64,000 nt of DNA, taken from Styela clava (taxonomy: Eukaryota > Chordata > Ascidiacea > Stolidobranchia > Styelidae). How positions within the stretch are numbered: the first letter of the stretch is position 1; every line of letters begins with the position of its first letter. The notes under the pieces are model-generated. The model had not been told where the DNA came from. It was given only the letters and a program-made list of their open reading frames with translations, and did not search any database. The DNA is taken from NCBI RefSeq assembly GCF_964204865.1, contig NC_135252.1, positions 14,405,383 to 14,469,382 on the forward strand, given 5' to 3'. The position numbers were made by a program, and so were the translations under genes. This document shows, in pieces, positions 24,381 to 63,280 of this stretch.

Positions 24381-26441
24381 ATGAACAAAGTAGCCGTTTT
24401 GATCGGCCTGGTTTTAACACTAACTGTTACTTCATTCTTTCCACTCGTAAGCGCCATGAGTGAAGATAAAGGTAAGACAATACCACCAACAAACTTTTTA
24501 TTTTTATTGCACTAATACTCGATTTTCTATATGTACAAGCATGGAGATGTCGAAAATTAGGTACAAATACCCTAAAACGCAAATACTTATCGTGCCTGAA
24601 ATTTATGATTTGATGCGCATTCCTCTTCACGCGGTGCGTCAGCAAACCTTTTTACGAATATATATAATTTTTTTTGTCGATTACTGGATTCGCGTTACAT
24701 AAACTTTTTAAACCGCATTAGACTATAATTTTCAACATTACATAAGTGAAAATATACAGTTTCTCATTTTTGTTGGTTTCTTTTATTTTTAGTTCTTGAT
24801 ATAGACAAAGTTATTGTCTACTATGTAAACTTCCCAAATCTTTTTGCGTCTGACTGGGCTATCAATCGATCCGCACGTTCAAAATGTCTGGTGTACACGT
24901 AAAGCTGAATGTACAAGTTAAACCTAGAGCCTAAAAATAAGCTTGGAAGCTTATATAGCGTATAGCTTGGAAGTCCACTGACCTCTAAAGTCGTAAGTTG
25001 AAGCTGAAACAAAACTGAACTGCCCGTGGAATACTTGATTCGGGATTCGTTTTTTGAAGTTGAAAAACATACGGGAACATTTTGGTATATTTTGTATTAG
25101 TGCTATATATACAATAAAAAACTGTAATGAAAATAAAGTGTGTAGTAGTTAAGTCAGGGTTGGAACAGATGTAAATCTACGCCATGTTGAATCTCAACCG
25201 TAGCGCTATATGCCGATGCTCTGTGAGTTTATTTCTGGCCACTAACTTGAAATTGATCTGGCAGACGGTGAACTGTGGGAATTATAGACATTTGATTGGC
25301 ATGACATAATTCTGTTAATTTTCTTTTGAGATGAACAAACAAGTAAGCATGTTTTATACCACTAAGCACTGGTTCCATTCCGAATATGAACCAATGAATG
25401 CAAAGAATTCCAATTCGCACGATTCGGCGACCACGTGGAAAATCGCCGAGTATTTCGCAACTTTATAAAAGAGTGCGATTGGTTCAGCAAAAGACAAAAT
25501 GGCAATTTTAAACGACCCTTCTTTCTTCTATCAAAAAACGTCTTTATCTCGTCCTATTCTCAGTATTCATAACTATGAAAGAAACTATAATACATACTTT
25601 ATAAAAACTAGTTTTTCTGTAGTAGCATATATTAATTTATTGAAAATATATTCACACATTTAAATACTGCCTAGTAGCGCATGTTGTTAAAACTCTCTAA
25701 AGAGCGCCACAGAACTTTTGAAGTAACCCGTACTCAGACAGACTATTATAAATTCGATCGATTCGATATTTAGTGTTGGAAATTATATTGGTGATGTGCA
25801 GACCAATAGGTATTTTAATGACAATAATGAATTAAAGTTTCATTCCCCTTTTTCAGTTAATACAAATGAATTAAAATGTATTATGTAATGTATTAAAAAT
25901 TTTCTAACAGTTCATTGATTTGATTTTTAATATCTATTTAGGTGTCATGATAAGTCGGATAATTGCCAGATGTTCTTCGAAATATTGTCCGGTACTACAA
26001 CGATCAGTAACTTGTTCCGTATTTGCGACAAAATTTGAACAAAACTGTAAGTTATAGGACACTTATAACATGAAGCAAGTACAATCTTGTTTAAAATAGG
26101 CTACAGCATCGGTGAAATCACTGTAATGGATAGCGTGCGTGAAAAATAAGGAGAGGGTAAAATCAACAATCATTTGAAAACGAAATCATATATTTTTAGC
26201 AGTATTGAAGATATTTTCCCATTCACTTACAAGCCCAATTTTGAAACAAATTGTGTTAATTTAAAATGGACGCAAGTTTAAAGCATTCAGTTTTCCAGAT
26301 ATTTTTCATTGCTTTACAAATTCATTATAAATTTGATTTTAATTTTATATTCTTCTAGTTTGTCAGATGTGCTGGAATCAGGAAATCTGCGCAAGAAGAC
26401 GATACAATCCGTTTATCGTCACCGGCCGAAAGTACGAATGA
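24381..26441 (+). CDS. Six-cysteine secreted peptide gene A (92 residues, three exons)
   Basis: Coding exons 24381-24471, 25942-26046 and 26359-26441 (stop TGA), with borders AAAG|GTAAGA, 'ctatttag', AACT|GTAAGT and 'ttcttctag'. Both introns are in phase 1. Exon 1 gives a signal peptide starting MNKVAVLIGLVLTLTV, probable cleavage after VSA at residue 25. Exon 2 holds RCSSKYCPV and VTCSVF, exon 3 FCQMCWNQEICARRRY. Cysteines lie at 41, 46, 55, 67, 70 and 76: C-x4-C-x8-C-x11-C-x2-C-W-x4-C, a spacing shared with genes B and C. The mature part is about 67 residues and basic. An AATAAA at 26796-26801 followed by TG-rich sequence is a good polyadenylation site. I recognise no known family. Three disulphides are expected; defence peptide, venom-like peptide or ligand are all open. 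Confidence 0.82.
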
Positions 26442-27530
26442 AAGATAAATGTCCACTTCATTTTGTTTTTATATCAGTAAAGCAATAACATAATTTATTG
26501 TATTTTTGCCCGCATATAGATTTTTAGAACAAACTTTATATTATTAAATATAACTTAAATTCGTTGATTTCGCTTAAAATAATATTTTTTTTATGTCATA
26601 TAAAATTAATGAATCAAAATACTGACAGGCATATATATGACAAATGCACCCAATGAGATAATTCTAAGTTCCCAAATAATGGTGTTTTCGTGTAAATCCT
26701 GCTTCTACTCAATGTTTACTTTTTATGTTATCGTCCTTTATATTATTCTATTGCGTTATTAATCCTTAATACAGAATACCTGTATGACAATATTTAATAA
26801 AATGTTTGCAATTATCGTGTGCTTATTTTCGTGTTGTACTAAATTATATAGGATTAGCCAACACCACTAAACTTTAGAATAATTTTAGCATGGAAATAGC
26901 CTGCTAGTACGCTCACCAAATAAAAGCTTTTGATTCCATAAGTGAATTGAATAGTTTTTCGTAATTGAATCAACTATTAGTCCAAATTGGACTGACGGGT
27001 ATATTTTTTAAATATTGTAGTAAGAGGTAATAAATTAAAAAAATAATATTTAAATCCCGTTTAAAGACCGTGTTCCACGCTATTTTAATTTTTTTATGTT
27101 TTTTTCTCTTGACAATTGTTTTTTAATATTTATTTTGATTAAATTAGTTGAAAACGGTTCTGGCAAATTATTAAATTCTACTGTAATGCTCTTCTTGTAT
27201 TTCACACATGTGCACTAGGTTTATTTATTTTCGGCCAAGTATTTAGGACTCATGACAACATATCGACTGACCATAAAGGTCAAAATATTTAGTTATTTTC
27301 CACTAACAAGAACAAGAATACTCGCACTTGGCTTGGATTGAATGTTATCAGAAATAACCTGCCAATATCATTGAAAGTAGGATAAAATTAATTCATAAGC
27401 AGTCCATAAGCGTAATGGATTGCACAGCATTACGAAGCATCATCCTACGAATTACATCCCAAATAATATGTCGAACAGGGCAAAATGGACAGGAAAAATG
27501 ACATTTATTAGGAATTGTATCTGGTGAATG
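26442..27530. other. 3' untranslated region of gene A and empty intergenic sequence
   Basis: Includes the AATAAA at 26796-26801. The rest is AT-rich with no frames of interest. Confidence 0.5.
26796..26801 (+). terminator. Polyadenylation signal of six-cysteine gene A
   Basis: AATAAA about 355 bases after the stop codon, followed by a TGTG-rich stretch. Confidence 0.6.
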
Positions 27531-28810
27531 TAGGAGCGAAGATAACTTCTAGTTTTGCTTTCCTGCAAACGATACGATAAGTTCAAAACATAAGCATGAC
27601 GTAAATTGACTTATGTTCGATATTATGTACATGCTTTTAGTTTATTAACAAAAAGATATCCTGAAGACAAGCTACTGGTAAAAGCCATAACAGCTTCTAT
27701 TTTTATACTTGTCTTAGGTCATGTTCATAATATTTGCATAACGGTATCCGGTTTGGGAATAGGAGAAGAACTTGAGTCATGTTTCGATAGTTTATGTCAA
27801 AGGTATTAAAAAGCAAATACCAAAAATGATAAATAATGCAAAAGTTTGAAAAGGTACGAGATGACAGGTTCAATTTGTAATTCAACAAGGATATAATGAC
27901 AGATCTCTCAATGCGTGCCGATAGTTCGATTGCCGTGACATCACAGACAATAAAATATTTTATTCAAAAACATTATGTGAAATGTCGGTCCCGTGATCAA
28001 TGATCTTGGGTATCATTTTGTGTAATCATCAACAGGTATTTTATAATAATATCAGATATTTTCATTGTATGATCTTGTATAATATGCATTTTTCCCCTTT
28101 AAAATAAGTTGCTCTTAACATATCCTTTCATGAAACTTGACTTTTGTATTGTTAAATGCTGTACTCCTTTATGGTGTCAATAAAAGATTGTTGAAGACTT
28201 CTTGGTCAAAATTGTTTTATTCATAGATAGTTTTTGCAATACAAATATATACCAATAATGGGAAATGGAGTATTGCCTAGAAAAAAGAGTGATTATGTAA
28301 AATATTTCCTCATCTCTAACATACACAATATAATCTCCCGTAATATATAGGATAATAGGGTAATGACTTTGCGCCTGACATATTTTCTGATGGTTACGCG
28401 TATCAAAACATATTACATAACACATTTATTAGAATAGGACCTATGTCGACGAAAACATTTAACACTTTTATTTATTCTGATATTCCATATTCACTCGATG
28501 CTTTTATTTATTCAGACATCACTTAAATTATTGAATAGCCTACAAATTCAAGTAATTGTATTTGATTTGCTCAGAAGCAAACCTGTTCGTGGGAAATGGT
28601 AATTTGATCAACATTATACGAGTTCATTAGCACTTTGTCTGGTAACGTAGCAGAAGTTCAAACGGTAGTCTCCTCTATTTGGTTTAAAGGTCAAATGCTT
28701 CGTTCAATACTATTTTTTTGCAATCCACACGACGTCCGTGATTTCTTCAAATTGTCCATGCACTAATGCACTAATATATACTTTAGGAGTAGTAATTGCA
28801 TGAATTTCAA

Positions 28811-29213
28811 ATGGCACGGGCCTCAAAGCTAGAGTGTCACACATTGTGGTCTAGATCGCATTTCCATTCTTGTGAACATAATCACGAACATCTGAAATTT
28901 CACCAGGTATTTTTTCTCTTTGTTGTTGTGTACATTTACAATAAAACTGTTTTGTGTCATATATATTTAAGAAAATATATTTCATGCCGCTGCCACATTT
29001 TAGGGTAAAGGTTATACGGAAATTAGTGAAATGTTCAGGTTTAAAATATGTATTGAGATGAAATATCGATCATGTTTTAACGAAAAATGGATTTGGAAGC
29101 CATGTCGATGCTGCATATGTTATAATCTGCTGGTAATTATATCGCATTGCTCCTTTTGTAGTTTACGGCTCAAAATGCCCAATTGTCCATTTTTCAAGTT
29201 GACAGAGAAATAA
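28811..29213 (+). CDS. Candidate two-exon cysteine-rich protein (101 residues), in repeat Y1
   Basis: Exon 28811-28906 ends TTTCACCAG|GTATTT; exon 29004-29213 follows 'ccacattttag'. Phase-0 joining gives 101 codons, from MARASKLECHTLWSRSHFHS to FFKLTEK and a stop that overlaps an AATAAA. The second half is rich in cysteine (FRFKICIEMKYRSCF, KPCRCCICY). The copy at 31739-31942 keeps the frame open although it differs by one 3-base and one 9-base indel, which hints at protein constraint. Against it: no signal peptide, no known family, no resemblance to the six-cysteine spacing, and a location inside a rearranged repeat. Confidence 0.35.
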
Positions 29214-31738
29214 AAACTTGATTGAAAACAAGCGTTATAATTCGCATTTTATTACTATTAGTAAGGCTATAGATCAGATACACTATCCCCGACAATATTT
29301 AACTAAGTGGAAACATATATCAATAAGGATACTTTGTTTGTTCGCTGTAATCACTATCCAAGCTAAATTTGAACCCTCACTCTGAAAGAATATGCATTTT
29401 CATTTAGTGGTTTTAACTCAACACATCACCGGGTTAGGAAGATATTTTCCCAAAGGAAGACATAGAAAGTTTCAGGGTTGTTAATAGATTATGTAAGTTT
29501 AATTCTCGTCATATTGTTAAATTAATAACTAAGCTTTTGTTCCATCTTCGGGAGGCTGTTCATTGTGTTCAATGTATTCATATGCATATTGTGTAGCTAT
29601 AGGGTAAGGTTTGTCATGGTAGTTGCGCATTTGTGCTTACGATTTCTTTTAGAAATAGGGAATTCAAAATCACGAGTTTTCTATTAGATTGTCCAACACA
29701 AAGAAAGTCTCGTTATATTACTTTTTCGCGTGGATTCTTCACAACGCTGGACTTCGTTGAGACGTGCATATTATCCATCCACAACTCAATAATGTTTATA
29801 CTGCGTTATGAGATAGTTTTATTGAAAATAATATTTGTTCAAGTGCACTCAGAAATAGAAAGTAAACATACAACTAGTAACAACAATAAAGTTACTGCAA
29901 TATGAGATTTATTGAAAAATTGCATTTGTTCAAGTGCACTTAGAAGTAGAAATTAAACATACAACCGTATTAAAGTGTCACGCCCCCACTATCCTTTTAT
30001 ATTCTGTCGCGTGCTTTATGATATTTGAATATATTAAATTTATAGAATGATATTGAATCTAGTCTGTTGGTATTCAAACGATTCCAACCATAGATGCAAT
30101 TGTCTCGATAGTTTCAGTGAAAGAAAATATGGGATACTTTGTTGCACTGGAAAAATGCAATATTGAACAATGTTTTGATTTATTAGTTTTGATTTGAGAT
30201 TGAACAATATCGGTATTTCGTTATGCTGCTTGGGGTCACAAAAGGTTAATATGTATGAGCGAAGATAACTTCTAGTTTTGCTTTCCTGCAAACGATACGA
30301 TAAGTTCAAAACATCAGCATGACGTAAATTGACTTATGTTCGATATTATGTACATGCTTTTAGTTTATTAACAATAAGATATCCTGAAGACAAGCTACTG
30401 GTAAAAGCCATAACAGCTTCTATTTTTATACTTGTCTTAGGTCATGTTCATAATATTTGCATAACGGTATCCGGTGTGGGAATAGGAGAAGAACTTGAGT
30501 CATGTTTCGATAGTTTATGTCAAAGGTATTAAAAAGCAAATGCCAAAAATGATAAATAATGCAAAAGTTTGAAAATGTACGAGATGACAGATCCAATTTG
30601 TAATTCAACAAGGATATAATGACAGATCTCTCAATGCGCCAGATTGTACAATTTCGATTGCCGTGACATCACAGACAATAAAATATTTTATTCAATAATA
30701 TTATGTGAAATGTCGGTCCCGTGATCAATGATCATGGGTATCATTTTCTGTAATTATCAACAGGTATTTTATAATGATATCAGATATTTTCATTGTATGA
30801 TCTTGTATAATATGCATTTTTTCCCATTTAAAATAAGTTGCTCTTAACATATCTTTGCATGAGACTTAACTTTTGTATTGTTAAATGCTGTACTCCTTTA
30901 TGGTGTCAATAAAAGATTGTTGAAGACTTCTTGGTCAAAATTTTTCCATTCATAGATATATCAATTTTTCAATAAATCTCATATTGCAGTAACTTTATTG
31001 TTGTTACTAGTTGTATGTTTACTTTCTATTTCTGAGTGCACTTGAACAAATATTATTTTCAATAAAACTATCTCATAACGCAGTATGAACATTATTGAGT
31101 TGTGGATGGATAATATGCACGTCTCAACGACGTTGAGCAGCGTTGTGAAGTATCCACGCGAAAAAGTAATATAACGAGATTTTCTTTGTGTTGGACAATC
31201 TAATAGAAAACTCGTGATTTTGAATTCCCTATTTATAAAAGAAATCGTAAGCACAAATGCGCAACTACCATGACAAACCTTACCCTATAGCTACACAATA
31301 TGCATATGAATACATTGAACACAATGAACAGCCTTCCGAAGATGGAACAAGAGCTTAGTTATTGATTTAACAATATGACGAGAATTAAACTTACATAATC
31401 TATTAACAACCCTGAAACTTTCTATGTCTTCCTTTGGGAAAATATCTTCCTAACCCGGTGATGTGTTGAGTTAAAACCATTAAATGAAAATGCATATTCT
31501 TTCAGAGTAAGGGTTCAAATTTAGCTTGGATAGTGATTACAGCGAACAAACAAAGTATCCTTATTGATATATGTTTCCACTTAGTTAAATATTGTCGGGG
31601 ATAGTGTATCTGATCTATAATCACGAACATCTGAAATTTCACCAGGTATTTTTTCTCTTTGTTGTTGCGTACATTTACGATAAAACTGTTTTGTGTCATA
31701 TTTAAGAAAATATATTTCATGCCGCTGCCACATTTTAG

Positions 31739-31942
31739 GGTAAAGGTTATATGGAAATTAGTAAAATGTTCAGGTTTGAAATATGTATTGATGTGAAATA
31801 TCGATCATGTTTTAACGAAAAATGGATTTGGAAGCCATGTCTATGCTGCATATTATGTCATAATGTGCTGGTAATTGTGTGCTTTTGTTGTTTACGGCTC
31901 AAAATGCCCAATTGTCCATTTTTTAAGTTGACAGAGAAATAA
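31739..31942 (+). pseudogene. Truncated second copy of the candidate cysteine-rich gene
   Basis: Equivalent of exon 2 of the candidate at 28811-29213, with the same intron and acceptor. Its upstream exon is cut off at the junction with the inverted repeat piece near 31620, so only about 12 bases of exon 1 remain. The frame is still open (RSCFNEKWIWKPCLCC) and ends at the same stop and AATAAA. It could be transcribed only as a fragment. Confidence 0.35.
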
Positions 31943-33000
31943 AAACTTGATTGAAAACAAGCGTTATAATTCGCATTTTATTACTATTAGTAAGGCTATA
32001 AATCTGATACACTATCCCCGACAATATTTAACTAAGTGGAAACATATATCAATAAGGATACTTTGTTTGTTCGCTGTAATCACTATCCAAGCTAAATTTG
32101 AACCCTTACTCTGAAAGAATATTCATTTTCATCTAGTGGTTTTAACTCAACACATCACCGGGTTAGGAAGATATTTTCCCAAAGGAAGACATAGAAAGTT
32201 TCAGGGTTGTTAATAGATTATGTAAGTTTAATTCTCGTCATAATGTTAAATTAATAACTAAGCTCTTGTTCCATCTTCGGAAGGCTGTTCATTGTGTTCA
32301 ATGTATTCATATGCATATTGTGTAGCTATAGGGTAAGGTTTGTCATGGTAGTTGCGCATTTGTGCTTACGATTTCTTTTAGAAATAGGGAATTCAAAATC
32401 ACCAGTTTTCTATTAGATTGTCCAACACAAGGAAAATCTGGTTATATCACTTTTTCGCGTGGATTCTTCACAACGCTAGTCTTCGTTGAGACGTGCATAT
32501 TATCCATCCACAACTCAATAATGTTTATACTGCGTTATGAGATAGTTTTATTGAAAAATAATATTTGTTCAAGTGCACTCAGAAATAGAAAGTAAACATA
32601 CAACTAGTAACAACAATAAAGTTACTGCAATATGAGATTTATTGAAAAATTGTATTTGTTCAAGTGCACCTAGAAGTAGAAATTAAACATACAACCGTAT
32701 TAAAGTGTCACGCCCCCACTATCCTTTTATATTCTGTCGCGTGCTTTATGATATTCGAATATATTAAATTTATAGAATGATATTGAATCTAGTCTGTTGG
32801 TATTCAAACGATTCCAACCAAAGATGCAATTGTCTCGATAGTTTCAGTGAAAGAAAATATGGGATACTTTGTTGAACTGGAAAAATGCAATATTGATCAA
32901 TGTTTTGATTTATTAGTTTTGACTTGAGATTGAACAATATCGGTATTTCGTTATGCTGCTTGGGGTCACAAAAGGTTAATAAAGGATTGCTTTGAATAAA

Positions 33001-33029
33001 TTGAATGAATGAATGAATGAATGAATGTA
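33001..33029 (+). repeat. (GAAT)n microsatellite
   Basis: Six or so GAAT units at the right border of the Y2 repeat block. Such tails are common at the 3' ends of non-LTR elements and SINEs. Confidence 0.85.
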
Positions 33030-33590
33030 AACATGCTGTAGCCTACAACCTACAGCTGTAGCCTTTTATTATTTATCAACCTGATTGTCCAGGTTATTAA
33101 TTAACATGGTCGGTCACTTTGATAAATGACATCATTGACACTTTACATCAAATTGCTTTAAAAAAATATTTGTATCATAAAATTAGCAATAGCGAACAGT
33201 TTAGAAGGCCGGCAAACAGGAATGAAAATGAAATCATCAGATACCAAACAACATTTTTTAAATTTATAAATTAATTCTATGAAGGCTTGATTACGTAATT
33301 TTTCATCTCGTAGGAAAGATCAGGACGTTAACAAAAGCATGGTTTTGATGCTCATGAAGCGTGGAACGATAGTAAAGTTATAATAATAGTAACAATTCGT
33401 TGCCATTTGGAAATGACCATCTGTCATCGTGTAGCAATCGATGGCATTCATTAGCAAATTTATTGAATATTGCCTTAGATTGCGTGCTTGTTTATGTGAA
33501 ATAGGTAGATTGTAACTAAACTAATTCCTTGTTTTTACCTATTCACCTAGCAGAAGAGAAAAAAAATTGAAAATAATAGTAAATATAAGC
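33030..33590. other. 5' flank of six-cysteine gene B
   Basis: No frames of note. A pyrimidine-rich acceptor ('gtttttacctattcacctag') ends at 33550, 40 bases before the ATG, indicating a 5' leader intron as proposed for gene A. Confidence 0.4.
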
Positions 33591-35096
33591 ATGTACAAGT
33601 TGACAATTATAGCATGTGTGGCAGTTTGCGTTGTGGTTCACATCGTGCTGTTGGATTATGCGGATGGAGACTCCACACGAGAAGGTAATCTAGTTGTAAA
33701 TTAAAATTACTCAATTACATCTAATGCGGTAATTCAAGTCACAACTCCGTCAATATTCACGAATTATCGCAATAATTACACTCCTAGAAAGTGTACTCTA
33801 CACGCTACTAATTGCTGTTAGATTTATTACACTTCGATGATACTTTATAGATAAGGCCTCCTTTTTGTTATGTTATTATTGATGATAATGCTCGGAGTCA
33901 ATTTACTGTCAGATATATAAATGTAAGAATGCTAACAAGTTTGAGTTTATTTGAGGCAGACTCAAGCAAATTTACAACCTTAGACTCAGTGGTTCTCAAA
34001 ATTTTTAAGCCGCACCCCTTTTTAGAATTTGCAACTCTCGCGTTCCACCTCAAAATTAACTAGCTAACAATAAGCTACAAATAGCAAAGCAAAAGTATGT
34101 TTTATTCAAAAAACACGTTGAAAATACGTGGAAGAAATCGCAATCTCTAAACAATAAAGAAATGTGAATATTTAAAATAAGGCGTGCAAGATCAAATCTG
34201 AGAAATAATTTTTTTTTTAATTAGCTTCATGCCCCCAAAAAATTGTCTACGCCAGCCCATAAAATCCCCCCCCCCCCCTTGGAGGACGCGCCCCGCCGTT
34301 TTAAAAACCACAAGTACATAGTTTCAATATACCGGCTGAAACAAAAATTCCGATGGTTTGACTTGCATATTCGATAAGTAGATAGTAAGTTGATAGTTGT
34401 TACATTTATTTGTGTTTTTATTTCAGTGTTTAGAAGGATGAAGAGAAGATGTTTGAACGCTTATTGCAGTAAGCTTAAGCAAAGAAGAACGTGCGGAATA
34501 TTCCGGGGTCCTCTACGAAGAAACTGTACGTTACATTTTCCTCATTTAGTTGTTAATCGATTGTTATTAAATTGTAGTGAATAAGATCAAATTTCCATGA
34601 AAAATTTTATAATTTTATATATGCCTTTTACTTGCATATATTCATAAAATTGGATAGATTTTATTCTCGTTGGATTGAATCTCAAATATAAAGTAGCAAA
34701 AATCATTCGTACCTGGTACCTGTCTTGACTTACTTGCTACATTAATCCTTCACATGAACATAACGAATTGAATCAATCAGTTAAAGAACAACAATGAACC
34801 CGTAAATATAGAAATGATGCCGTGAATTGAACTTCAGTAATATTCAGTATTGTCAATCCATACCAGAGCTATGATCGTTCATTAGCAAAAGATATATATG
34901 CCGTCGGTTTTGCATTTCCATGCATCTGTTTATGAATCACCTGTCGAAATGACGTCACTTTCCCACTACGTGGATTTATAGTTATGAACTAATTGTACTC
35001 CTTTTAGATTGTGTATTTTGCTGGAGGTATCATTGCAAAAGTTCAACAAACACCCGTTCTATGTACACTATGGGAGCTTTGTCTCGATTACGTTAG
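33591..35096 (+). CDS. Six-cysteine secreted peptide gene B (93 residues, three exons)
   Basis: Coding exons 33591-33684, 34427-34525 and 35008-35096 (stop TAG), with borders GAAG|GTAATC, 'tatttcag', AACT|GTACGT and 'ccttttag', both introns phase 1. Exon 1: MYKLTIIACVAVCVVVHIVL, a signal peptide probably cut around residues 24-26. Exon 2: RMKRRCLNAYCSKLKQRRTC; exon 3: YCVFCWRYHCKSSTNTRS. Cysteines 40, 45, 54, 66, 69 and 74 give C-x4-C-x8-C-x11-C-x2-C-W-x3-C. It is strongly basic between residues 34 and 63, as in many membrane-active peptides. Exon 2 is closest to that of gene C: both begin VFR and share a KRRCLNAYC / RTKCLNFYC block. AATAAA at 35157-35162, 61 bases after the stop. A hAT-like MITE sits in intron 1. 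Function unknown. Confidence 0.85.
33987..34313. mobile_element. hAT-like MITE in intron 1 of gene B
   Basis: The left end CAGTGGTTCTCAAA has the common hAT terminal form; the right end TTTTAAAAACCACAA is its approximate inverse. A C run lies at about 34266-34278. I could not find a clean target duplication, so the right boundary is uncertain. Confidence 0.55.
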
Positions 35097-35156
35097 AGAT
35101 GAACAACGTCATATGGAATCATGAAGATGTTGTAAATATTGATATCGCTGACAACA

Positions 35157-35162
35157 AATAAA
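35157..35162 (+). terminator. Polyadenylation signal of six-cysteine gene B
   Basis: AATAAA shortly after the stop, followed by a T-rich stretch. Confidence 0.65.
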
Positions 35163-36079: not shown

Positions 36080-36125
36080 TTTGCTCACGTTTTGTCCTTG
36101 GTCCAGTCGATGGTTTGAGTTGGTC

Positions 36126-36185
36126 GAAGTCGCTACAACCTCCACACGTGTATAGTTCTTGCGAACACTTGAGAACACAACAAAA
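36126..36185 (+). repeat. 5' LTR remnant of the gypsy element (right part)
   Basis: Matches 38471-38533 with few differences (core 'gaagtcgctacaac'), ending at 'agaacacaaca' in both copies. Confidence 0.7.
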
Positions 36186-36492
36186 CTGGCGATGAGGATA
36201 AAATACACACGCGTGGAAGATTCGTAAGATTACAGCGATTGCTCAGACTTTAGTGAGACACTGTTTATTGTTAATATGCGAGACCGCGTAACAAATTTCC
36301 TGTAACTCAAAAAATGGCTAAGAATATGATTTGATATGATGAAAGTGATTGGCCACTTAGTATTTTATTGCAAATGATATTGTCGATGAGAAAAAGGTAC
36401 CAACGTTAATAACTTACCTACTAAATACTACACAATCTTTTTGCACCGGCCCAGTTCCAAAACATATTATGTTATAAAGTAAACCTTGCAAG

Positions 36493-38533: not shown

Positions 38534-38584
38534 AGTAATCTTTTACAGTAGACTATACAGGTAGAGTAGTCTTTCCGATTTTGT

Positions 38585-50510: not shown

Positions 50511-50676
50511 AATCTGGCATATTTTGGCCTTGCTATTTGAAGAATACCTCGGCATTCACATCCTAGCGGCATTTATAGTAAAGGTATTATGTAAATTGGT
50601 ATTTCGATGTTTATTATCTGTAAACAGATCGCAATTCAGCGAACGTATTTCCGCGTTGGAAACCAACCTATCTAGT

Positions 50677-53350
50677 ACGTATTCTATCAAACTATCTCTT
50701 GGTATTATCCACCATCACGCCATTTTATGGTTTACGCTTCCTCGATTCACATCAAGATAATCTACCGCTGTGTCGAATTGTTGATTTTTTAAAGTTGAGA
50801 GAGACGTTTTAATATTCGGTAGCTTCCCAGCATACTTTTACAATACAAAAATATTATGTTTTATTGCGAACTTATAAAACTTGGCGCCATGAAACGTGTT
50901 ATATAAATTTCAGGCCAACCTTAAACAGACCAGTGACATAGATATTGCAAACAATATTAAAAAAAATTGAATGTAGTTAACTTCTATATTACGATTATGC
51001 AATGTGGATATTGAAGTAGCAGTGGTATATATAGCATACCGCACAATTATACAGGGTGGGGTAAAAAACTCTTCACATTTCAAATTAAAATCAATTTAAT
51101 TAAAATGAAATATGCAGGGGAGTTTTCTTGTCCCACCCTGTATTAATGGTTAAATATATTGTTAGTGTTTTAAGAGGTTGTGGATATACATACATACAAC
51201 TACCGTTACATACAGAGCTGGCAACTCTTCGGCTTACATTTTGGCATGATATGGATATATAATCGACCATTTTAGCAGTGTTACTGCGTCAGGTGTATTT
51301 ATTTATTTATGTGAGATGTAAACAATATTTTCAATTTTATATTCGCATATAAACTCATAATAGGAGCGAAATGCTTAAATGTATGGTCGCGAATGCCCCT
51401 TGGAGTAGGCACACCGCCGTATAAGCATGGAAGAGACGTTGAAGCGTGGTGGAATTGAAAATTGTTTCGATGTAATTATAATTTTGGGTGAAAATCGGCT
51501 TCTATATGACTTAAAAATATAATGCAACTTTTCTTTTTTATCAACAATTAACAACAATAGACGTAGGTAAAACACAATAATTAATAAACCGTGAGTTAGT
51601 TTGCAATTTTAAGAACCTAAATTAAGATGGCTTGTCCGGGTGTCATAACATGGTCTATAAACCTGTAGGTTTTGTTGTATAATCTAGTATAAGTTTTGTC
51701 AACAAAACGAGTTTTTCCGTCGATTAAGATGGGCTTAAAAATTGTACAAAAGCTTTGTAATGTGGTTTATTGTAACGAAAAAAAATTTCCATCGCCTTCA
51801 TTCAAACACAAGCAGATATTTAAACCCGAATGACCCTAAATTTATGGTAAAATATGACATCACAAAAGAAAGCGAGAAAGAGAATCAGTAAGTAACATTT
51901 ATATTACCACTTTGTAACTTCTACAACTTTGTACGTTACAGAATCAAGTATAATAAATATATTGTAAAACTTTCCCTTGTTACAGGAAATGAAATTCATG
52001 TGTTGTTATCGGCAATTCGTTTGTAAAGTACGTGTAACACTCGCAGTTTACATGCAAAACTCCTTTACTTTTTCAAAATCTCAACGAACGCTCACGTTTA
52101 TAACGTTATGCCAAACCCACAAAATTCGTCTGCCTCGGATATCTGAACTGTGTCTAAGTTATCCTAATGATGAAAGCGAATCCGTACAATTTACTATTAA
52201 GCGACTTTTTAATTTTGACAGCAGGTATTTATAAATAACTTTTAGTGTACCCGATGAATCATCTCCCACAAGGCTTAACGCATTCATTTTTCTTTTGTTC
52301 CCGTCTTCCATTTGACGTCGTTGGTGTTCCAGTAATTTGTTGAAATTTCTCATTATCGTAGATTTTTGAATTTGCATTTCCTCGCAGATTGTAAAAACAG
52401 TGATTGTGTATTGATTGTGAATTGATGTGAAGCAGCGAACATGGAGTCCTCGAATTAAATCTGTGCGGTCTTTGAGTCAGTTTGATAAAAATTTATATAC
52501 TTCTGAGTTTTTGCATTGACTTGCGGTCACATACGCTAAATAAGTTGATAGGCTAAAGTAAGGACTGGGTTGCTTGTTACGATTTATTGAGCCATCAGAT
52601 TTGGATGCAACCGGGTCATAGTCTACTCTAGGCCAGCGTTGCAAAATACCAAAAATTTGGCATATTTATATGATTTTAGACATGCGATTTTTTAGTTGGC
52701 TTATTTTCATAAAGTTGACATAAAGTGCATGTAATTTGAAGCTTCATGGTACACCTGTATAAGATTGATATGTCGCCCGTAAGCTATTGCTATAATTTGG
52801 GAAGCATGCCCCAAGATATCAGTAAGAAGGGAACAAATAATATACATTGTTTTTGTCGTGGTTTTATTGTCTTTCAAAAATATTCATCTATATAGCAGGG
52901 ATATCGGGGCAAGTAAATCCTCGCGGATTGTTCAGATCAGATAATTCCAGAGTCTCAAGTACCCACTCAAGAGGGATGGAAGTCATTGAAAAGAAAATTA
53001 CGAATCGTAGTAATATATAAAGCTATACAGGGACAGGGAGTTAGCAAAACCGTTGCAATGCAGAGTTAGGGTGAATGATGTTCTTTGAGTGAAGCTGTCG
53101 GTTACACTTTCTTATAACTAATTTTGTTGAAAAATATGTTTTTATTTTAAATTTTTTTAAAAAATATTTGAGTTTAAGATCGAGTGCTATCGAAAAATGT
53201 ATACAATGATTTTTTTTTTCACATGGTGGTGATGTCTTCACTTAAAATAGCTGAATGTGTAAATTTATGTTGATGTTGAATATCATAAAAGCATTCGTGA
53301 TTATTTATAACATTCTATTTATACATATGCACAAAAGATTTAACATGAAT
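50677..53350 (+). repeat. Large diverged tandem duplication, unit 2
   Basis: Partner of 46783-50510. It carries an extra 0.5 kb (50946-51455) that includes the small MITE at 51052-51140. On the minus strand 52377-52159 a frame (MRNFNKLLEHQRRQMEDGNK) stays open, while the equivalent in unit 1 (about 49590-49430) has a one-base shift and early stop. If it was ever an exon, at most one copy is usable. Confidence 0.7.
51052..51140. mobile_element. 89-base MITE with TA target duplication
   Basis: Inverted ends CAGGGTGGGGTAAAAAACTC and GAGTTTTCTTGTCCCACCCTG, flanked by TA on both sides (51050-51051, 51141-51142). TA duplication and CAGGGTGGG termini suggest a Tc1/mariner-type element. No coding content. 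Confidence 0.75.
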
Positions 53351-53699
53351 GCCTCAGTTTATTGCCTCAGTCATAAATTTTCACTAAACGGCATGCTATC
53401 CATAAAAAGTTATTTATTAAGTCTCGAGCTCATAAAAAATCGATCTGGTTTGCAATTTATTGAAAGCGTTTCTCGAAAAATAATTTTTTTTGTCAATTAA
53501 TTAAATTATGTTGTCGGATTTTCTGAAGATCGATAAAGGCTATCCAGACTCTAGGAATAATTAAAAAAATAAAAAGATTTTTTGATAAGATCAAATTCTA
53601 GCAAGGTGGAGTATGTAAAGTAGAGGATCGAGATAAATAATCGGAAATAAATTTAGCCAAATCGGTCACCTTTAAAGCAAGAGAAAAGGAAATAGTGCG

Positions 53700-54095
53700 A
53701 AGCGATATTTAAATTTTGGCACTACAATCTGAAAGAGATGTCGAAAACAACAGATTACAATCGGGTTAACTTTGGTGCAAGGAGCACAGCAATCTGATCC
53801 TTTCTAAAAACGCAATATTTCAGCGTCCTTGAAAAACTAAATTTTGAATGGCATAATGCATTGGTCAGTCAACTGGTATGCGCATTGCCTGAAAGTAATC
53901 TTTCATATAAACATGTTGTATTAGACATGAATGGTAAATTACGGAAACATGCAACCTAATATGTCCGCAAATTCTCTCAAGTATTTCGCTGGACATGTGC
54001 CAGAGGACGTCGGTAAAGAGTTTTTATCATCCGGAAATGTGCGCGTGAAAGACTCGTTAGTCGCTATTATGCGATCGTCTGAGACGAGACGCTAA
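53700..54095 (+). pseudogene. Decayed coding stretch ending near a polyadenylation signal
   Basis: One frame gives FWHYNLKEMSKTTDYNRVNF, a TGA, then QYFSVLEKLNFEWHNALVSQ and LSYKHVVLDMNGKLRKHAT up to a TAA at about 53958-53960. In a second frame, starting at an ATG at 53931, NMSANSLKYFAGHVPEDVGK and VRVKDSLVAIMRSSETRR lead to a stop at 54093-54095. AATAAA follows at 54126-54131. Long stretches of natural-looking protein in adjacent frames plus one internal stop suggest a gene or element that lost its frame. I do not recognise the family. Confidence 0.4.
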
Positions 54096-54131
54096 ATACA
54101 ACTGAAAATCCAATTTCAACTGAAAAATAAA

Positions 54132-56850
54132 GAAGTGAATAATTAAGAATAAAAACGGTGTTGGTATATATAAAACGGGAAAACCATAAATTTCGATTTA
54201 GGAGTGCCGCGGCAGATTAAAAACTGTATTTTAGATGTTTTCGAATCGCAAAATTTCAGAATTTTCAATCGTAAGCTAAACCGTAGTCACCTGAGGTTGA
54301 TCCATTCCATTATCCATTATTAAATTACCCCCGGGTCGCACACGACGTCTTTACTTATTGTGGTGATATTGCAATAATGTAAAATGTTAAATTTCATTGT
54401 CGACCTTGGGATTTTGCTAACGTCGACATCTTGAAAATAACTGCGAGCGGCTCAAATTTAACAAATTACCAAGATCGGAAAAATGCGAATCAATTCTAAT
54501 TATAAATCGGGCAGTATACCATATATGTTCATGTACGCAAATTGCAGTATTTCAGAGCAATAATACTTTTATTCCATTGTGCGTAGTCGCAACGGCGAGT
54601 GACGTTGAAATTGATTATATTAATACGACAACAGGTCATTGAGCTCAAGGGTAGGCATTAAACGCTTGCTTTATATTTTAGAATCACAAAATTGAATTTG
54701 TATGCCTAATAATATTTTTTGTTATTTTAATAAAGGGAGTTTTGTTTTTAATGCATGAAAATATTTTTCCTTCACGCAACATTTTCATCGCTGCAAAGTT
54801 TTTTAGAAAGTAAAAAGCACCAAATATCGCTTATACGACTCGAAATGGTACATTTTTAAATCGTATTGAAAAAAAAAACATTATTTTGATATTTGAAAAC
54901 GTAAATACGACACATTTTTAGTTTTAATTTTATTTTTGTGACAAAGCACGAAACTTTTAAAAAATTTGTGCTTTGTATATAAATGTCTTGATTGACAAGA
55001 AAAAAAATATTAAAAACTAGAGTGGAAAGTAAGTACGTAACTGCTAGATGTAAGTACTCTCACCTCAAGTAATTAAAAGTGTAATGGGTGATATCGCTTG
55101 TGTTGACAGAATATTATGCGGTTGACTTGTGGCAGCTGCCTGAACACAACCCAACGAACTTCTAACACGCATAGGGGTTGACCCGTAAAGATTGAGAAGT
55201 GCAAAATGTCATCAGCATATACAGACAAACACATATACGTCATATTAAGTGCATATGGAATTTATAAATGTTTGTGAATTTTAATACGCATAGCTAAATT
55301 GTCTTTAAGAACAAGAACTTCGTTTTGATCGGATTTCCATTCAACTGAGCTACTTTGATCTTGCTGACTTGCAAAATCATAATGTCCGATCCTAGAATTA
55401 GTAGCATTGTGGTTATATTTGACTTGGCACAATATAATAATATATGAACAATACATTGCGCCAACCTCTATCTCAATTCCCGTTGGGATTTTGGAATATT
55501 CTCGCAGTCTTTTGTATCGATGTTTACAATGTACAATGTACTGGAAATTATTATCATAATCAGATACGCCAATTAATTTCATATAGCCCTTAAATGCTAC
55601 AAGAACTTTATATCATATGTTGTTTGACTTTGATCTCCACTAAATATTCCGTTCCGTTATCTCGTGGGAATATATCTGAATCCAATTCTCCTTCCAATAT
55701 ACCTGCCATCCAATGAAAATAAGTTTCGATGATTTACATTGTGGCGTGTGTGTAATCATGACGAATAGGTTTCCTAAGTAATGGAAAATGTAGAAAAAGA
55801 TTTCCGACTGTATACAAAATTTTTGAATATTTATTTTCAGGGCGAACGTAAATTGAAATATTTATTCGAAAAAAATTACTAGAAATTCGCATTAACGTTA
55901 TACAGATATTTTCAATTTTATTTTATGCTTCGAAATACCAGTTGACGAAAGTGAATTCTCCACAGTACATGATATTAAATTTACTTTGTGAATATACTAA
56001 AGCATGATATTTGTTCAGACAGACAGACAAGTAATTGCATGCTGACGCCAAATCATACAATGAAATTCAAACTAGAATTGAGTTGTGACAGTATGTTTGT
56101 CAAATACCAATTGAACGTTTGTTGATGGAAGAAGTAAAATAACAGATAAACGAAGATTAGATTTAGATCAAGTGCAGTTGCCCATCGATGAGAAAAAGTC
56201 TCTCAAATAAGTGTATTGAGAATACCATTCACCATCGTTTGTTTAATATTTCATTTTTGTTGACGGAACAATGGTTTTCTATTCTATTTCATGATTCAAT
56301 GCGTGTAAATGGATCATGCAGTCAATGCGGTTTAACAAATTCTCGTTGTTTTGCTTTTAAAATGATAATCGTGGTCGCATTGTTTCAAGCATAAAATTTG
56401 GGATTTATTCATCTATTTTATGCTGAATTTTCTTATATAAACATATATAAAGAACGTGAAAATTTCAATATTCCATTATAGCTTAACTATCAATTATAAT
56501 CGAAAAAATTATGCTTTCATGCTGAAAATACATTAGCTGTCAATTATTGCCCTTTAACGCATAATTTCTCAGTGACATTATTAACTCATAATTTTAGTGC
56601 TTCAGAATCTCGAAAGTTTGTCAGAGAATGTAAAAAGAAAACGGCAGAAAGGCTGTGATCTTTGGGACAGTGTTGTGAAAATTGTCTTATCTGATAGCAT
56701 GTTAAAGTTTCTGTAATGATAACAAACACAGGGCAAAACAACCAACAGAGAGAGGATAATGGGTAAAAAAACGACAATAATTACGCGAGTATTTATGCTT
56801 GAAGGCATTTCTTTATTTACTTGCCTAAAAATAATTTGAACTTTTTTTTA
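54132..56850. other. No recognised gene; one unassigned minus-strand frame
   Basis: A 106-codon ATG-initiated frame at 55262-55582 (minus; MKLIGVSDYDNNFQYIVHCK) is the longest here. It has no family features and no evident promoter or polyadenylation signal. The remainder is AT-rich, and small frames at 56188-56394 are unconvincing. Confidence 0.3.
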
Positions 56851-56902
56851 CAAAATAGAACATAGTTTCAACGTAAAGTAAAGTATTTCTGTTACCAACA
56901 TC

Positions 56903-59900
56903 ATGAAACGGATTGCTTATTACACCCTATGTGCGTTGTTTGTGCTGGTCATCTGCATTTTGTATTCGGATGCAAGAAATTCTCATGCAGGTACGCGCTT
57001 TTGGCTTGTTTCCAGTTAAAGTCTTAAAAAATGAGATGCACACCGGAACGTCATTCTACAACGAATATCGATATTTGGAAATTTTTGTGCGCTTTAGTTG
57101 AGACAAGCATTTTTGATTGGGCGATTTCATTCTCTTTAGTCTTTCGAATGTACAAGAAGATGCGAACAAAATGTTTGAACTTCTACTGTCCAGCGCTGGA
57201 AGAAGAAAAAAGTTGTCATCAATTCAACACGAGAGGCGAAAGAAAACGTAAGAATATAAATGTGTTGTGTTAAATTACTTCAATTCTTCCTATTGTGAAC
57301 GTATAAAAATGAACTTCCAGATAAATGGACTTGATGATGGATGAAGCCGTAACCGACCAGCGGTTACGTGAACCACCCTAGGTCGGAGAGAAGCCCAGTA
57401 TTCTTCCCGCAAATAAATATACCCCACGGGATCAGAACCCACGCAGGGTAATCAGAGTTGCGGTGGGAAGCGTGTTTCTAACGCTTAGCACGATGCGCCA
57501 CACGCCGAGCCGAGCAATAGAACAATGCTACACGAGTATGGCACTATATTTTATATTAACCACGAGAAGATAATCTAATTTGATCTATATTATTATATAT
57601 ATAAATGCGCGATGATTGCGTGATTAATCCTTGTTGAATAACACTTAAATACAATAGGATTTCATCTCTGTTCAGTGAAAGAGAATAAATTAAAATATTT
57701 GTGTCCTTCCATGTGAGAGAGTGAGATTTTGATGAATAGCATTAAAATGCAGCAAATTGCTGTTAAAAAAGGAGAGAATAAATATTCGTTCATTCCATTC
57801 GTTTACTCATTTATATTTAGTTTGCATCGCTTTTAGCTTTTCATATCGCTTCTGTTTCTGAAAGTTTGTAAAGATGATTCATCACAAACTGCGGTCAGAC
57901 TAACCGTGAATAAGCTGGTTCATTAATCAACGTAATACACAAACAACCCCCTCAAAAACACTCAAATATCTCGAAAAGGACTCGCAACACCATTTAGCGT
58001 GTGTGTGGTCCGGTACCATCATGGTAATCAGCGATAAAAAAGCCGGCTTCGTTGTTAAAAAAAAAGATATTTAGATAATTTACTATGGTAGATGCATAAA
58101 TGATTATTACAAAGTATAACCAACTTTTATAAATATCTTTTTGCGTGAAGCTTTATTAATTTTGATTACATTACAATGAAAAAATTATATATAAATAACC
58201 ATTGTTGTCATTTTATCATATTGGTTGGAAAAAGTATGAATAATCGAGTGATGAGTATTATCTTGTAATACGAAATCCCTAATTATGACTTATGGATACA
58301 CTCATTTGGGGTACTGAATTTTTTTTGTAAAGTGCTGTAATGGATAAATGAGGAGCATCGTTTCCGTAAGAAAATTTTGTGGCAAAGCATGTATTACTTT
58401 TGGCCCATTCGCATGCTGGTTTCAAATTTCAAAACAAATCTCAAGAGAATAATTTAAAGAAATACATATTGGCTGCGTGTTTATATTACCCTCTTTCAAG
58501 ATATCCTATATAACAACTCATTACTCTTTTTCACTCATTTTCTTTTGGTAACTGCTAGCCATCTATGTGCAACCCAGAGCCCAAATAATTAGTAAATCCT
58601 TCATTGGCTAACCATTTAAGTTAAATTTTAACATATAAAAGTTTCGTGAACGATTGCGCTTGAGTGTAAATTTTTTCAAATAGGTCAAATAAGTTTGTTT
58701 TATCGTACGGCCTCGTGTATGATACCTTAATCCAACTGTTATCTTTGCTTGGGGCAGGTGGTGGTTTGGTGAACGCTACCGAAAAGCAATGTGTTTTTGC
58801 ATTACGAAATAAGTTGACTTCAGAAATATGGTTGTAATGCTTTTAGACGGCACAGTAAAACGATTAAAACTCTAGAGGTAACGCCAATCATATTGCATCA
58901 TCGGTATTTCAAACTTCAAATAATAGCTACACATAAACAAGGGATGAAAATAGAGCTGCGAACTGTTTTGTTCGGAATATTGCAATTCAATATTTTTCAC
59001 CACTTTGGGGAGCCGTGTGTTAACTCTGGTGGGTGAGTGATGCTTTATATATACGCAATCTATCCACAATGCGAACTGATGTAAAATCATATTATACCAA
59101 TGGTGAATACCAACAAATGACGAGCAACTGTTATACCAAAATAGATATATTTACTTTCGTGAAATAGAATCAAAGAAATTCTGTTTATTGTTTTCAAAAA
59201 TAAATCTGACTAATGATTGAATTGGCGATTAACAAATATTTAGTGAAAGATTGTACAAACAAGTTGTAACAATATTCATAAATTCTATGTCAGTTCCCGT
59301 GCTGCGGATTAGACCATGAAATTTTGGAATTAAATTGAATCAACAACCTCAAATATTTTATAAAGTCCGAAGGATTTTTTCTTTATTTTTATTTTGTAAT
59401 ACTTACCGGTTCGGTATATATATTTGTTATTTTCTTAATCTTTCTTTCCGTTTTCCTCAACGAGTTGTTCATTACTGGCTTTGATTTCAATTTCGATTTA
59501 TTTTATACATTCGCAAGAAAAATCGACGCTTGCCTGGCAACTAGCAATGATTTTGGAATTTCACACTTCTATCTCTTGATTGGCCCAGTTTGATAAGACG
59601 AAGTATTTATTTTTGTATTAACGTTAATATATGCTTCATTACATGTTCAATTTAACCCTTTTGTTTAAATCATTCTCCGTATTCATTTCCATGAATTCTG
59701 TAATCACCCTCTTATGTGTGTGTGTGTGTGTGGGGGGGGGGGGGGCAAATTACTGACAACTGTAAAGAAATTCTAATAGAAGGGCATATGGGGTCGAGAT
59801 TCACATGGGTTCAATCTTCATCATCCATCAAGACTTGGAGGTTCCAAAGTAAACTTTTTCTTAGAATCAAATTTCTGGATAACAAATTTATTTCGATTAC

Positions 59901-62900
59901 GAACCAGCAATATTATAAATGCCAGCTGTCATCTCGTTGTAATTACTTTGTAATAGGTAATAACATTGCCACATCAAAATGTAGGATCAAGGTTGTCAGA
60001 CGTGTGTTGTCCTTTAGTGATGAATTTTCTCACAATGATTAAATTTTGCGGTGATAATATCCCACGCGCAAACAGTTTGAACAAGTTCGAACTTGAGATC
60101 TGAAAACTTATATATGTCACTGTCACTATGGGAGAATTCAAGAAAAATATACATGTAAAATCAAATTGATACATGTACAAGGTGCATGTAGAATTAAACT
60201 TTCTTATTTCTATTCATCTTTTCTGACCAAAAAGAATAAAACTTGTATAATTTCATGTTCACATAGGATTAGTTAAGAAACTAGACGTTAATGCATTTTA
60301 GATTATTCCATTTCTCAGTTTCTGCCCACCTGTGACCAGGATAAAATTTAACCAAACCTTATTATTTAAATTGGTTTGTATCACAATGTGGCGGTGTTAA
60401 TTTTAATGTGTCATAAAATTGAATCATATACATTATATAATATTAGCTTTATTTCAGGGTCTCCCAAACTAGGGTCCGTGATGACTGCACATGGGGTCCG
60501 CAACGATATGAAAAGAGTCTGAACATATACAAATAGGTCATAATCTAATATAATTGCTATTAGCCTGCCAGTTAGTATGCATTGATTCAGACTTTCATTT
60601 CGTCAAAGGAAACATCATCTTTTCTCGTTGGTTAGGCACATCAATTGACACCGCATAAGACGGGGTCCGTCATAAAAAAGATTCACAAACAGTGGTCCGC
60701 GGTCGAAAAAGATTGGTTGGGAAATCCCTGCTAATTTATTTAAGCAATAAGAGCGTCAAAAATTTAATATCAAATGAAAACTAATTGTCTACACCACAAC
60801 ATTGGTTAAAACAAATAAATAATACTATATTCTGTAGTCAATTTCTAAGGTGCACTGTATGCAATGAGATCTTCTGACAAATTCCAAGACCGACCACACA
60901 TTACAAGATTCACCCACAAGCATTTAAAAACACATGAACAATGATGAGAATGATATATACGAATTCAAATAAAATATCAATAGTACAAATAATTTGGGAA
61001 TAAAAATAGTCAATAAACCCATCCCCAGAACCATAAAATAAAATTAAATAAAAATTCATTTGCTTAGGAAAGAAATGAGTCGCTTGCCATTACCATTGCG
61101 TGACAGAAACAGATATATATACGTAAGAGCCGTATTTTTGACCTATATCCAAAACATCGACACACTTTTCTTATTTTTCTAACACACACACAAAGTGAAT
61201 CTAGACTTTAAAGTTTATTGTTTTGAGTCAAATAAAAACTTGGAGATGGAATTTAGAACAAAACGAGACACTCCCAAAAAGTTACTATAAAGTTTACTAC
61301 CATTTTATGTTTTTCATGAAAACCGTACCGTTAAAGTATTCACCCGCCCCATCCTAACAGCACGTATGCTTCAATGTCTTGCCTATTTTTAAATTTTCGT
61401 CGCCAGTTCTTACGCCCGCTAATTTATTTGTGAATGCAAATCAGGAAACCTACGTTAAATTTGTGGAACTGTCATTATGGCCCAAAAAATGAACCATGTA
61501 AGCTATAATGAAATTTACGACCCCAGTTACGTAAGTAAAGATTTGTTGAAAAGGAATTGTTTTAAAATAATCATTTTAAATCGAGTTTTTTTTACCTGCT
61601 TTGTTTAAAATGGATGTGGTATTCGATTTTTTTGTATCAAATAGGCTAAGTCTAAAACAAAAATAAAAAATGGATGTAAAAACTTTCCAATCGCGATAAA
61701 CCTTTCGAAACGCCACAAATATTGATGACTAGCCACCTTTCGAAACGCCACAAATATTGATGACTAGCCCATAGTCGCCTTCTCGAGCTGTAGCGCAATA
61801 CGTCCGCAAACGTGGTTGTTGGAGAAAGACGCAACCGGTAAGCCGTTACGCCCTTAGGTGAATCACTCTGCGGCGGCGAGGATTTCAGCAATCCTCTTCC
61901 AAATTGTCACATCTCTCATGGGATTTGAATCAGGGTCAACATTTACCAATTAAACGAAATGAAATTGGAATACGAACGAATTATTGAATTTGTATAACTT
62001 TAAAAAACCTATATATATATATATATATATACATCGTTTCGGTAGCCAAAATTTTGTAATTTACGCAATTTTGAAATGTACTTGCGGTGTCATATTACAT
62101 AACTTCCAAATCCCCCTTATAACGTCATAAGAAATTGGTTGTGACGCCATTGTTATAGTCGGAGATTCACAATCAGCATAACCTGAAATGTCTCATCGTA
62201 CAAGTCCGGCCCCGATTCGAACTTTGGTTAGTTGCCACCGATCAAAGTATATTCCACATTATTGTATCAACGTACTTGTTTGGCCAAATTTTGGCGGTAA
62301 GCGGGCCCCCTGGTATAACTGCTTTTGGATTCTAGTAGGCCCGTGAGCTATGTTTCATTAGTTTTCATGCATTTTTTACTCAAATCATCTTTCAGATATT
62401 TCGGATAAACATCCCTGTTTAAATCTTATGACTTTGGGGCATGTACTGACTTAGCAATAAAGTTGCGCAATGACAGTAGAAGTCGAAATTTTTATTTTAT
62501 TTCTTATAATATTTTTGAACGTATTATTCCAGCAGCATGTTCAGCTGCCAGAACGCAACATTTTGGCGTGAATACAGAAAAAAAAATTGCTTTAAAACAA
62601 GCCCTTGTTTATAATTGATAAAAATCAAAACCCTACGCGCAAGGATGATATCGACGATTGTTACGGGTGATATGACTTCGTTGATTAGTTTTGAGGTTTG
62701 GATCCAACACTTAAGACAATTGTGTTTATTTTTTAGTTATTTTTTTTAAATTAAATTCTTTTTTTGAATGTCTAATATTGCTAATCTAAGCCACAAACAT
62801 CACATTTGCTATGTGAAGCTAGCTTCTTTACTTGCTAGATCGCATTCACTCAATTCGAAGTGGACACAACTGAGCACAAAATGATATAATTTTTGAATTT

Positions 62901-63280
62901 TTTCGGAGGAATTACATCTTTTAGGATACTTGATCTGGTTTTAAGGGGCTGCACATAGTATTGCTTGAAACAGTTGATGATGGCAACGAATACATATGAT
63001 TTTCTCTAATATAATCGCAATTTCGTACATTTGAACGACGAAAATAGATCACAAAAGAATTAGTAAATGCATCTGGGAAAATAACCATACTAACAGATTT
63101 CTATTGAAACTTATCGATTTGTATTGAGATTGAATTATGCCAGTGTTTGATAAATTTTGATTTTTTGATAATATTTATTCATTTTTTTCAGTTTGTCGAT
63201 TCTGCTGGAAGCATTTTTGTCAGCCCGGAAGAGAATGGTCTATTTTCAAGTTGAAAACGCGTTCATTTTCTACAGCATGA
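56903..63280 (+). CDS. Six-cysteine secreted peptide gene C (94 residues, three exons)
   Basis: Coding exons 56903-56990, 57140-57247 and 63192-63280 (stop TGA), with borders GCAG|GTACGC, 'ttctctttag', AAAC|GTAAGA and 'tttttttcag', both introns phase 1. Exon 1: MKRIAYYTLCALFVLVICIL, signal peptide likely cut after SDA (residue 24). Exon 2: MRTKCLNFYCPALEEEKSC; exon 3: LCRFCWKHFCQPGREWSIF. Cysteines 41, 46, 55, 67, 70 and 75 give C-x4-C-x8-C-x11-C-x2-C-W-x3-C, identical to gene B. Unlike B it has an acidic patch (EEEK) between cysteines 2 and 3. Intron 2 is about 5.9 kb and filled with a SINE, a hAT MITE and simple repeats, whereas introns of A and B are 0.3-1.5 kb. I found no other matching exon 3 in between. 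AATAAA at 63475-63480. Confidence 0.78.
57318..57518 (-). mobile_element. Complete tRNA-derived SINE in intron 2 of gene C
   Basis: Read on the minus strand it begins with a tRNA-like head: 'gtgtggcgcatcgtgctaag' as A-box region and 'gtgggttctgatcccgtggg' as B-box/T-arm. A unique body and tail follow ('gggtggttcacgtaaccgct', then 'caagtccatttatctgg'). It is the best-preserved of the four copies and defines the family. Likely derived from a tRNA with a long variable arm (Ser or Leu type); this is inferred from spacing only. Confidence 0.75.
59711..59746 (+). repeat. (TG)n(G)n simple repeat
   Basis: TG repeats running directly into a G run of about 14. Confidence 0.9.
60455..60730. mobile_element. 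hAT-type MITE in intron 2 of gene C
   Basis: The left end CAGGGTCTCCCAAACTAG and the right end inverse of CAGGGATTTCCCAACC have the common 'CAGGG-CCCAA' hAT terminal form. GGTCCG motifs recur inside (60473, 60494, 60664, 60692). A clean 8-base duplication is not obvious. Confidence 0.65.
61701..61770 (+). repeat. Two-copy 35-base tandem repeat
   Basis: The 35 bases starting 'cctttcgaaacgccacaaat' at 61701 recur immediately at 61736 without change. Confidence 0.9.
61808..61940 (-). mobile_element. Diverged tRNA-derived SINE copy
   Basis: On the minus strand 'cctgattcaaatcccatgag' is a B-box-like segment, followed by 'aggattgctgaaatcctc', 'gtgattcacctaagggcgta' and 'acggcttaccggttgcg', parallel to the blocks in the other three copies. 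Confidence 0.5.
62010..62031 (+). repeat. (TA)n microsatellite
   Basis: About eleven TA units. Confidence 0.85.

Follow-up and report, generated by a model that had tools for sequence, protein, structure and literature searches.

The window, by which we mean the whole stretch of 64,000 nucleotides of Styela clava DNA that was analyzed, contains three genes on the plus strand that encode small proteins with a common framework of six cysteines; the presence of three genes sharing this framework was confirmed. They very probably represent a genuine family of secreted six-cysteine peptides. As the best explanation we propose, with a probability of a little under one half (about 0.47), that the genes form an orphan tandem family whose products are basic, secreted, disulfide-rich host-defence peptides; given that the family is genuine and secreted, the chances that it serves host defence would be about even. 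Counting toward this explanation are the intactness of the three genes, each with three exons and all alike in intron phases, orientation and framework, first exons that encode signal-like peptides, and an agreement of residues outside the framework that none of 100,000 shuffles reached.

Gene structures and cysteine framework

The nine exons lie where the initial annotation had placed them (Table 1), all with GT-AG borders and unbroken frames in the window sequence. Each gene has three exons and two introns, both in phase 1, and the products are 92, 93 and 94 residues long for genes 1, 2 and 3, respectively. The exon frames are short, as had been claimed, and the hydrophobic, signal-like peptides are encoded by first exons of only 88-94 bases. 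The complete spacing is C-x4-C-x8-C-x11-C-x2-C-W-x4-C in gene 1 and C-x4-C-x8-C-x11-C-x2-C-W-x3-C in genes 2 and 3, with the x11 interval spanning the second intron. Fixed cysteine spacing and a Trp after Cys5 can be read in all three translations, the interval from this Trp to the last cysteine being the only one that varies. The second introns differ in length (0.3 kb in gene 1, 0.5 kb in gene 2 and 5.9 kb in gene 3), and the first AATAAA follows the stop codon by 354, 60 and 194 bases, respectively. Acceptor-like sequences, chosen by eye from several AGs, end 31 (TTTCAG), 40 (CACCTAG) and 44 (AAAATAG) bases upstream of the ATGs of genes 1, 2 and 3; these putative sites could mark a 5' UTR intron or the addition of a spliced leader.

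Table 1. Exons of the three six-cysteine peptide genes (positions in the window)
Feature	Coordinates	Strand	Content
Gene 1 exon 1	24381..24471	+	Start codon, signal-like peptide; donor GGTAAGA; best mean hydropathy 2.69 over 12 residues
Gene 1 exon 2	25942..26046	+	C-x4-C-x8-C
Gene 1 exon 3	26359..26441	+	C-x2-C-W-x4-C; stop TGA ending at 26441; first AATAAA 26796
Gene 2 exon 1	33591..33684	+	Start codon, signal-like peptide
Gene 2 exon 2	34427..34525	+	C-x4-C-x8-C
Gene 2 exon 3	35008..35096	+	C-x2-C-W-x3-C; stop TAG ending at 35096; first AATAAA 35157
Gene 3 exon 1	56903..56990	+	Start codon, signal-like peptide
Gene 3 exon 2	57140..57247	+	C-x4-C-x8-C
Gene 3 exon 3	63192..63280	+	C-x2-C-W-x3-C; stop TGA ending at 63280; first AATAAA 63475

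Comparison with chance expectation

The window was scanned for sites that combined the cysteine spacing with an open frame, a pyrimidine-containing acceptor and the correct phase. With this pattern, which was devised after the genes had been seen, three exon-2-like and three exon-3-like sites were found on the plus strand and none on the minus strand; 300 one-strand Markov shuffles gave means of 0.047 and 0.007 sites, respectively, with a maximum of one each. When splice borders were not demanded, there were five open C-x4-C-x8-C stretches on the two strands of the window, among them the three of the family. A scan of both strands for a signal-like first exon followed by a phase-1 donor returned three matches, which are these genes. 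The shuffles, however, had a mean of 0.63 matches, with three or more in 2 of 60, and 200 kb of real flanking sequence had five start sites, so that the first-exon scan is by itself a weak line that supports the family and does not prove it. When the framework Cys and Trp columns were removed from the alignment, 21 identical residue pairs were counted over the remaining 32 columns, the number that no shuffle attained, and three non-framework columns were invariant (Tyr, Leu and Phe; p 0.0008). The initial proposal of a three-gene family is thus upheld by the exons, the phases and the framework together with a non-framework similarity above chance.

Predicted function

Each of the three proteins begins with a signal-like peptide and continues with framework cysteines that are even in number, as judged by hydropathy and by eye, which is the general architecture of secreted disulfide-rich peptides. 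Past residue 25 the balance of K+R over D+E is +6, +16 and +10 in genes 1, 2 and 3. This basic charge, in a tandem family seen nowhere else in our searches, fits release and binding in host defence. Under the host-defence explanation, three old tandem paralogues would give rise to predicted secreted precursors that, without the signal peptide and counting from past residue 25, have about 67-69 residues. Their six cysteines would most likely pair as three disulfides around a small core, which may pack on the conserved Tyr, Leu and Phe and on the Trp after Cys5. The basic peptides might then be released by blood cells or epithelium and bind acidic microbial surfaces. We infer expression, secretion and disulfide bonding of the three peptides; antimicrobial action is a guess from class resemblance, just as any role as defence peptide, toxin or ligand is guessed from charge and architecture. 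An AlphaFold model of the piece encoded by exon 2 of gene 3, made with the three-row alignment, had two helices at a mean pLDDT of 58.9 and is too uncertain for use.

Many basic secreted peptides are ligands, and this counts against host defence. Nor was there any sign of the faster amino-acid replacement that immune effectors often show, in data that cannot measure such a rate. The main rival to host defence, possible although we consider it unlikely, is that the three are secreted signaling ligands (peptide hormones, cytokine-like or reproductive), in which the framework would be the scaffold and specificity would come from the variable surface. Ligand genes usually have a signal-peptide exon, then phase-1 introns and one small domain, and basic residues ahead of Cys1, such as RRMKRR in gene 2, could serve as a processing site. 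Gene 1, however, does not have a site of this sort, and no relative was found in the protein set searched, although many ligands have been conserved throughout the animals. Doubtful, in our view, is the wider proposition of a tunicate-lineage peptide family with a previously unseen disulfide framework and fold, confined to a single genomic cluster and used for variable recognition or effector action outside the cell; its members would be immune effectors or ligands for recognition of self or partner.

In favor of host defence there is an ascidian precedent, the turgencins, which are cysteine-rich antibacterial peptides without database relatives (PMC7024374).

Searches for relatives

The three proteins appear to have no credible relative in Pfam, NCBIfam, the PDB or a set of 5.8 billion proteins, which agrees with the initial annotation, where no named family with this framework was recognized. 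Pfam, at E values up to 10, had no match for gene 1 or gene 2 and gave two unrelated sub-threshold matches for gene 3; no ShK domain, Kazal or defensin match was obtained for any of the three at this cut-off, at which the HMMER filters drop most weak matches. NCBIfam gave no match. Among the 5.8 billion proteins, an alignment query found 14 candidates sharing words with it, none at E up to 1, and genes 2 and 3 as single queries found no candidates. Because such searches need shared words or sequence similarity, relatives as distant as the paralogues are from one another would be missed. Up to an E value of 10, neither gene 1 nor gene 3 matched any PDB chain. Gene 2 gave seven weak PDB matches: three recA fusion chains were the best (E 0.00046 to 0.027, with no single stretch passing), followed by Rabex-5 (0.047 and 0.23), a Zfand5 chain bearing an A20 domain (0.16) and an uncharacterized protein (0.88). 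The family profile matched formin-binding protein 1 (E 0.078) and Rabex-5 (0.2 and 0.32). The framework was absent from the titles and abstract openings listed in searches of an open-access library, a weak negative as most subscription papers lie outside that scope.

These results bear on a second rival, that the genes encode protease inhibitors or channel-acting, venom-like peptides. Both groups often have a compact core of six cysteines and loops that vary, but Pfam offered no such family and the PDB no such structure for any of the three proteins, and we consider this rival improbable.

If expressed, the genes would give the tunicates a further peptide family, undescribed in the sets searched, and would illustrate how small peptides split over several exons would escape ORF filters. 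The surprise is modest, as animals commonly have cysteine-rich secreted peptides confined to one lineage: this is an interesting orphan family, but one of a common general kind.

Comparison with named systems

Several ascidian peptides resemble the family in part. Turgencins A and B of Synoicum turgens are, like the Styela proteins, basic ascidian peptides with six non-adjacent cysteines, a C4-x2-C5 interval and no database relatives; they are described with antibacterial activity, C1-C6/C2-C5/C3-C4 bonding, amidation and the shared motifs CXMAC and KKXGG (PMC7024374). Unlike the three genes, the turgencins have 35-36 residues, no Trp after Cys5 and a spacing of x3,x4,x7-8,x2,x3, compared with x4,x8,x11,x2,x4-5 here. 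Membership in the turgencins was rejected, since C4-x2-C5 is the only interval that agrees, and genes 2 and 3 have C5-x4-C6, which exceeds the turgencin interval by one residue. Comparison of the family with the turgencins by hhalign gave a probability of about 0.1% with one column aligned, which is no match. The difference in spacing and the lack of a profile match count against host defence. The St-CRPs, also from Synoicum turgens, are again six-cysteine peptides without database relatives but differ in their length of 18-19 residues, CC-C-C-CC pattern and neutral charge (PMC13208793). Rusticalin of Styela rustica is a secreted basic ascidian protein with six-cysteine units; it differs in its spacing (x6,x6-7,x8,x7,CC) and in having two repeats fused to a peptidase-like domain (PMC6339383). 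The three genes do not have the spacing of this beta-defensin-like repeat, Cx6Cx6-7Cx8Cx7CC.

The A20-type zinc finger, present in the weakly matching Rabex-5 chains, shares C-x11-C-x2-C-W with the three genes. This finger is an intracellular zinc site built on four cysteines, C-x(2-4)-C-x11-C-x2-C, and the Rabex-5 PDB chain carries C-x3-C-x11-C-x2-C. In the zinc finger a further Cys lies four positions upstream, whereas the three genes have Arg, Gln and Glu four residues before Cys3. An A20 assignment was rejected on the missing Cys, the secreted context and the lack of a Pfam match to A20.

N-terminal sequences and paralogue divergence

The N-termini are signal-like by hydropathy in all three proteins, in keeping with the signal peptides previously assigned. 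The best mean hydropathy over 12 residues is 3.2 in gene 2 and 3.5 in gene 3, and each of these two proteins has two extra cysteines within the hydrophobic stretch. Such long hydrophobic stretches might be retained as signal anchors, making the products of genes 2 and 3 membrane-bound; we regard this as quite improbable, as plausible small-residue cleavage sites (VSA, ADG and SDA, one per gene, identified by eye) follow the hydrophobic stretch in all three.

Over the core, 14 of 38 codons encode identical residues in genes 1 and 2, 13 of 38 in genes 1 and 3, and 15 of 38 in genes 2 and 3. By the NG86 method, dN is 0.60-0.74 and dS 1.6-3.4 over this core, and the duplication looks old. For a slightly different core, pS was 0.66-0.73, pN 0.42-0.48 and pN/pS 0.58-0.70, with one of three pairs at p 0.017. 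When the shared Cys and Trp codons, by which the family had been defined, were removed, pN/pS rose to 0.74-0.90 and no pair departed from neutrality (p 0.14 to 0.81). With synonymous sites so close to saturation, the variable part allows no claim of positive or of purifying selection, and the diversifying change suggested in the initial annotation is not supported. That the exons are unexpressed relics or chance alignments, as a pN/pS not different from 1 outside the shared Cys and Trp might suggest, is hardly credible, as all nine are intact despite the near-saturated synonymous sites, chance rates are far under three sites and the residue agreement exceeds that of every shuffle.

Search for further members in the genome

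The genome (376.6 Mb in 379 contigs) was searched with exon-3 signatures and with the single proteins. Within the limited sensitivity of these searches, no convincing fourth member was found within 100 kb on either side of the window or elsewhere in the genome. A looser scan over 264 kb recovered the same six sites and, in the 200 kb of flanks, four exon-2-like and no exon-3-like sites; two of the four have a stop just ahead of the core and resemble one repeat. Exon profiles gave their own six exons E values of 3.2e-12 or better, as their construction dictates; the candidates that ranked next in the 264 kb (E 0.02 for exon 2 and 0.29 for exon 3) were without the framework.

Genome-wide, a first exon-3 DNA pattern had 29 matches compared with 8 in the reversed control, and three of these were the window genes. 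Of the other 26, none of the 14 examined has a sixth Cys separated from the Trp by x3 or x4, and the remaining 12 were identical copies taken as a repeat. Of two fuller patterns, one had 12 matches against 6 in its control and the other 13 against 3, three of the 25 matches being in the window. Nine of the other 22 were examined with 2 kb of upstream sequence; the 13 left out comprised three with in-frame stops, seven resembling a single dispersed repeat, one near-duplicate, one double listing and one further site. One of the nine was interrupted by an in-frame stop, and in another (L045) an open C-x4-C-x8-C stretch overlapped the exon-3-like site itself. Closest to a fourth member was L044 on contig C10, also among the nine, with an exon-3-like CFHCWTSFC and an open C-x4-C-x8-C 1.2 kb upstream. 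Its acceptor is poor, its donor would yield x8 plus an extra Cys, and the conserved Tyr, Leu and Phe are absent. Because of the poor splice sites, the lack of a signal-like start in the preceding 793 bases and near-zero exon-profile scores (about 0 bits for one profile and 4 for the other), L044 was taken as probable chance and not counted as a member. A tighter pattern matched only genes 2 and 3, with one match in the reversed control.

Protein searches of the genome recovered the query's own exons. Gene 2 also reached exon 2 of gene 3 (E 0.007), and genes 1 and 3 recovered neither sister; as sisters were mostly not recovered, sensitivity is low and distant members may have been missed. Four other weak matches on other contigs (E 0.1 to 3.5) lacked the framework and were rejected.

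Genomic surroundings

On the minus strand at 577-1734, four short open stretches with C-x(3,4)-C-x5-C-x4-C-like spacing are perhaps exons of a cysteine-rich secreted gene; their Pfam matches (TIL, EB, short-toxin and others) were all below the cut-off. A signal-like start followed by C-x5-C-x4-C, on the plus strand at 14375359 of contig C3, about 30 kb before the window, resembles this kind. Between genes 1 and 2, at 27528-32854, there is a direct repeat with a spacing of about 2.73 kb, pieces 94-99% alike and inverted copies. Other repeat pieces, at 2962-5459 and 15916-18589, lie about 12.95-13.13 kb apart, the two-copy pieces being 95-99% alike, with more copies about 1.4-1.6 kb further on. 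Rfam and tRNA scans of the window had no matches. A search for COX1, intended for reading the mitochondrial code, likewise had none. An unbroken class I methyltransferase frame (Methyltransf_25, E 4.6e-11) occupies 20671-21378 on the plus strand.

Cellulose synthase joined to GH6 is a hallmark of tunicates. Elsewhere in the genome, on contig C9, a cellulose synthase domain (E 2.2e-4) is followed on the same strand, after about 2 kb, by a GH6 domain (E 1.5e-6), both over the cut-off; this pairing supports the assignment of the genome to a tunicate. The transfer of cellulose synthase in ascidians is noted in PMC6339383.
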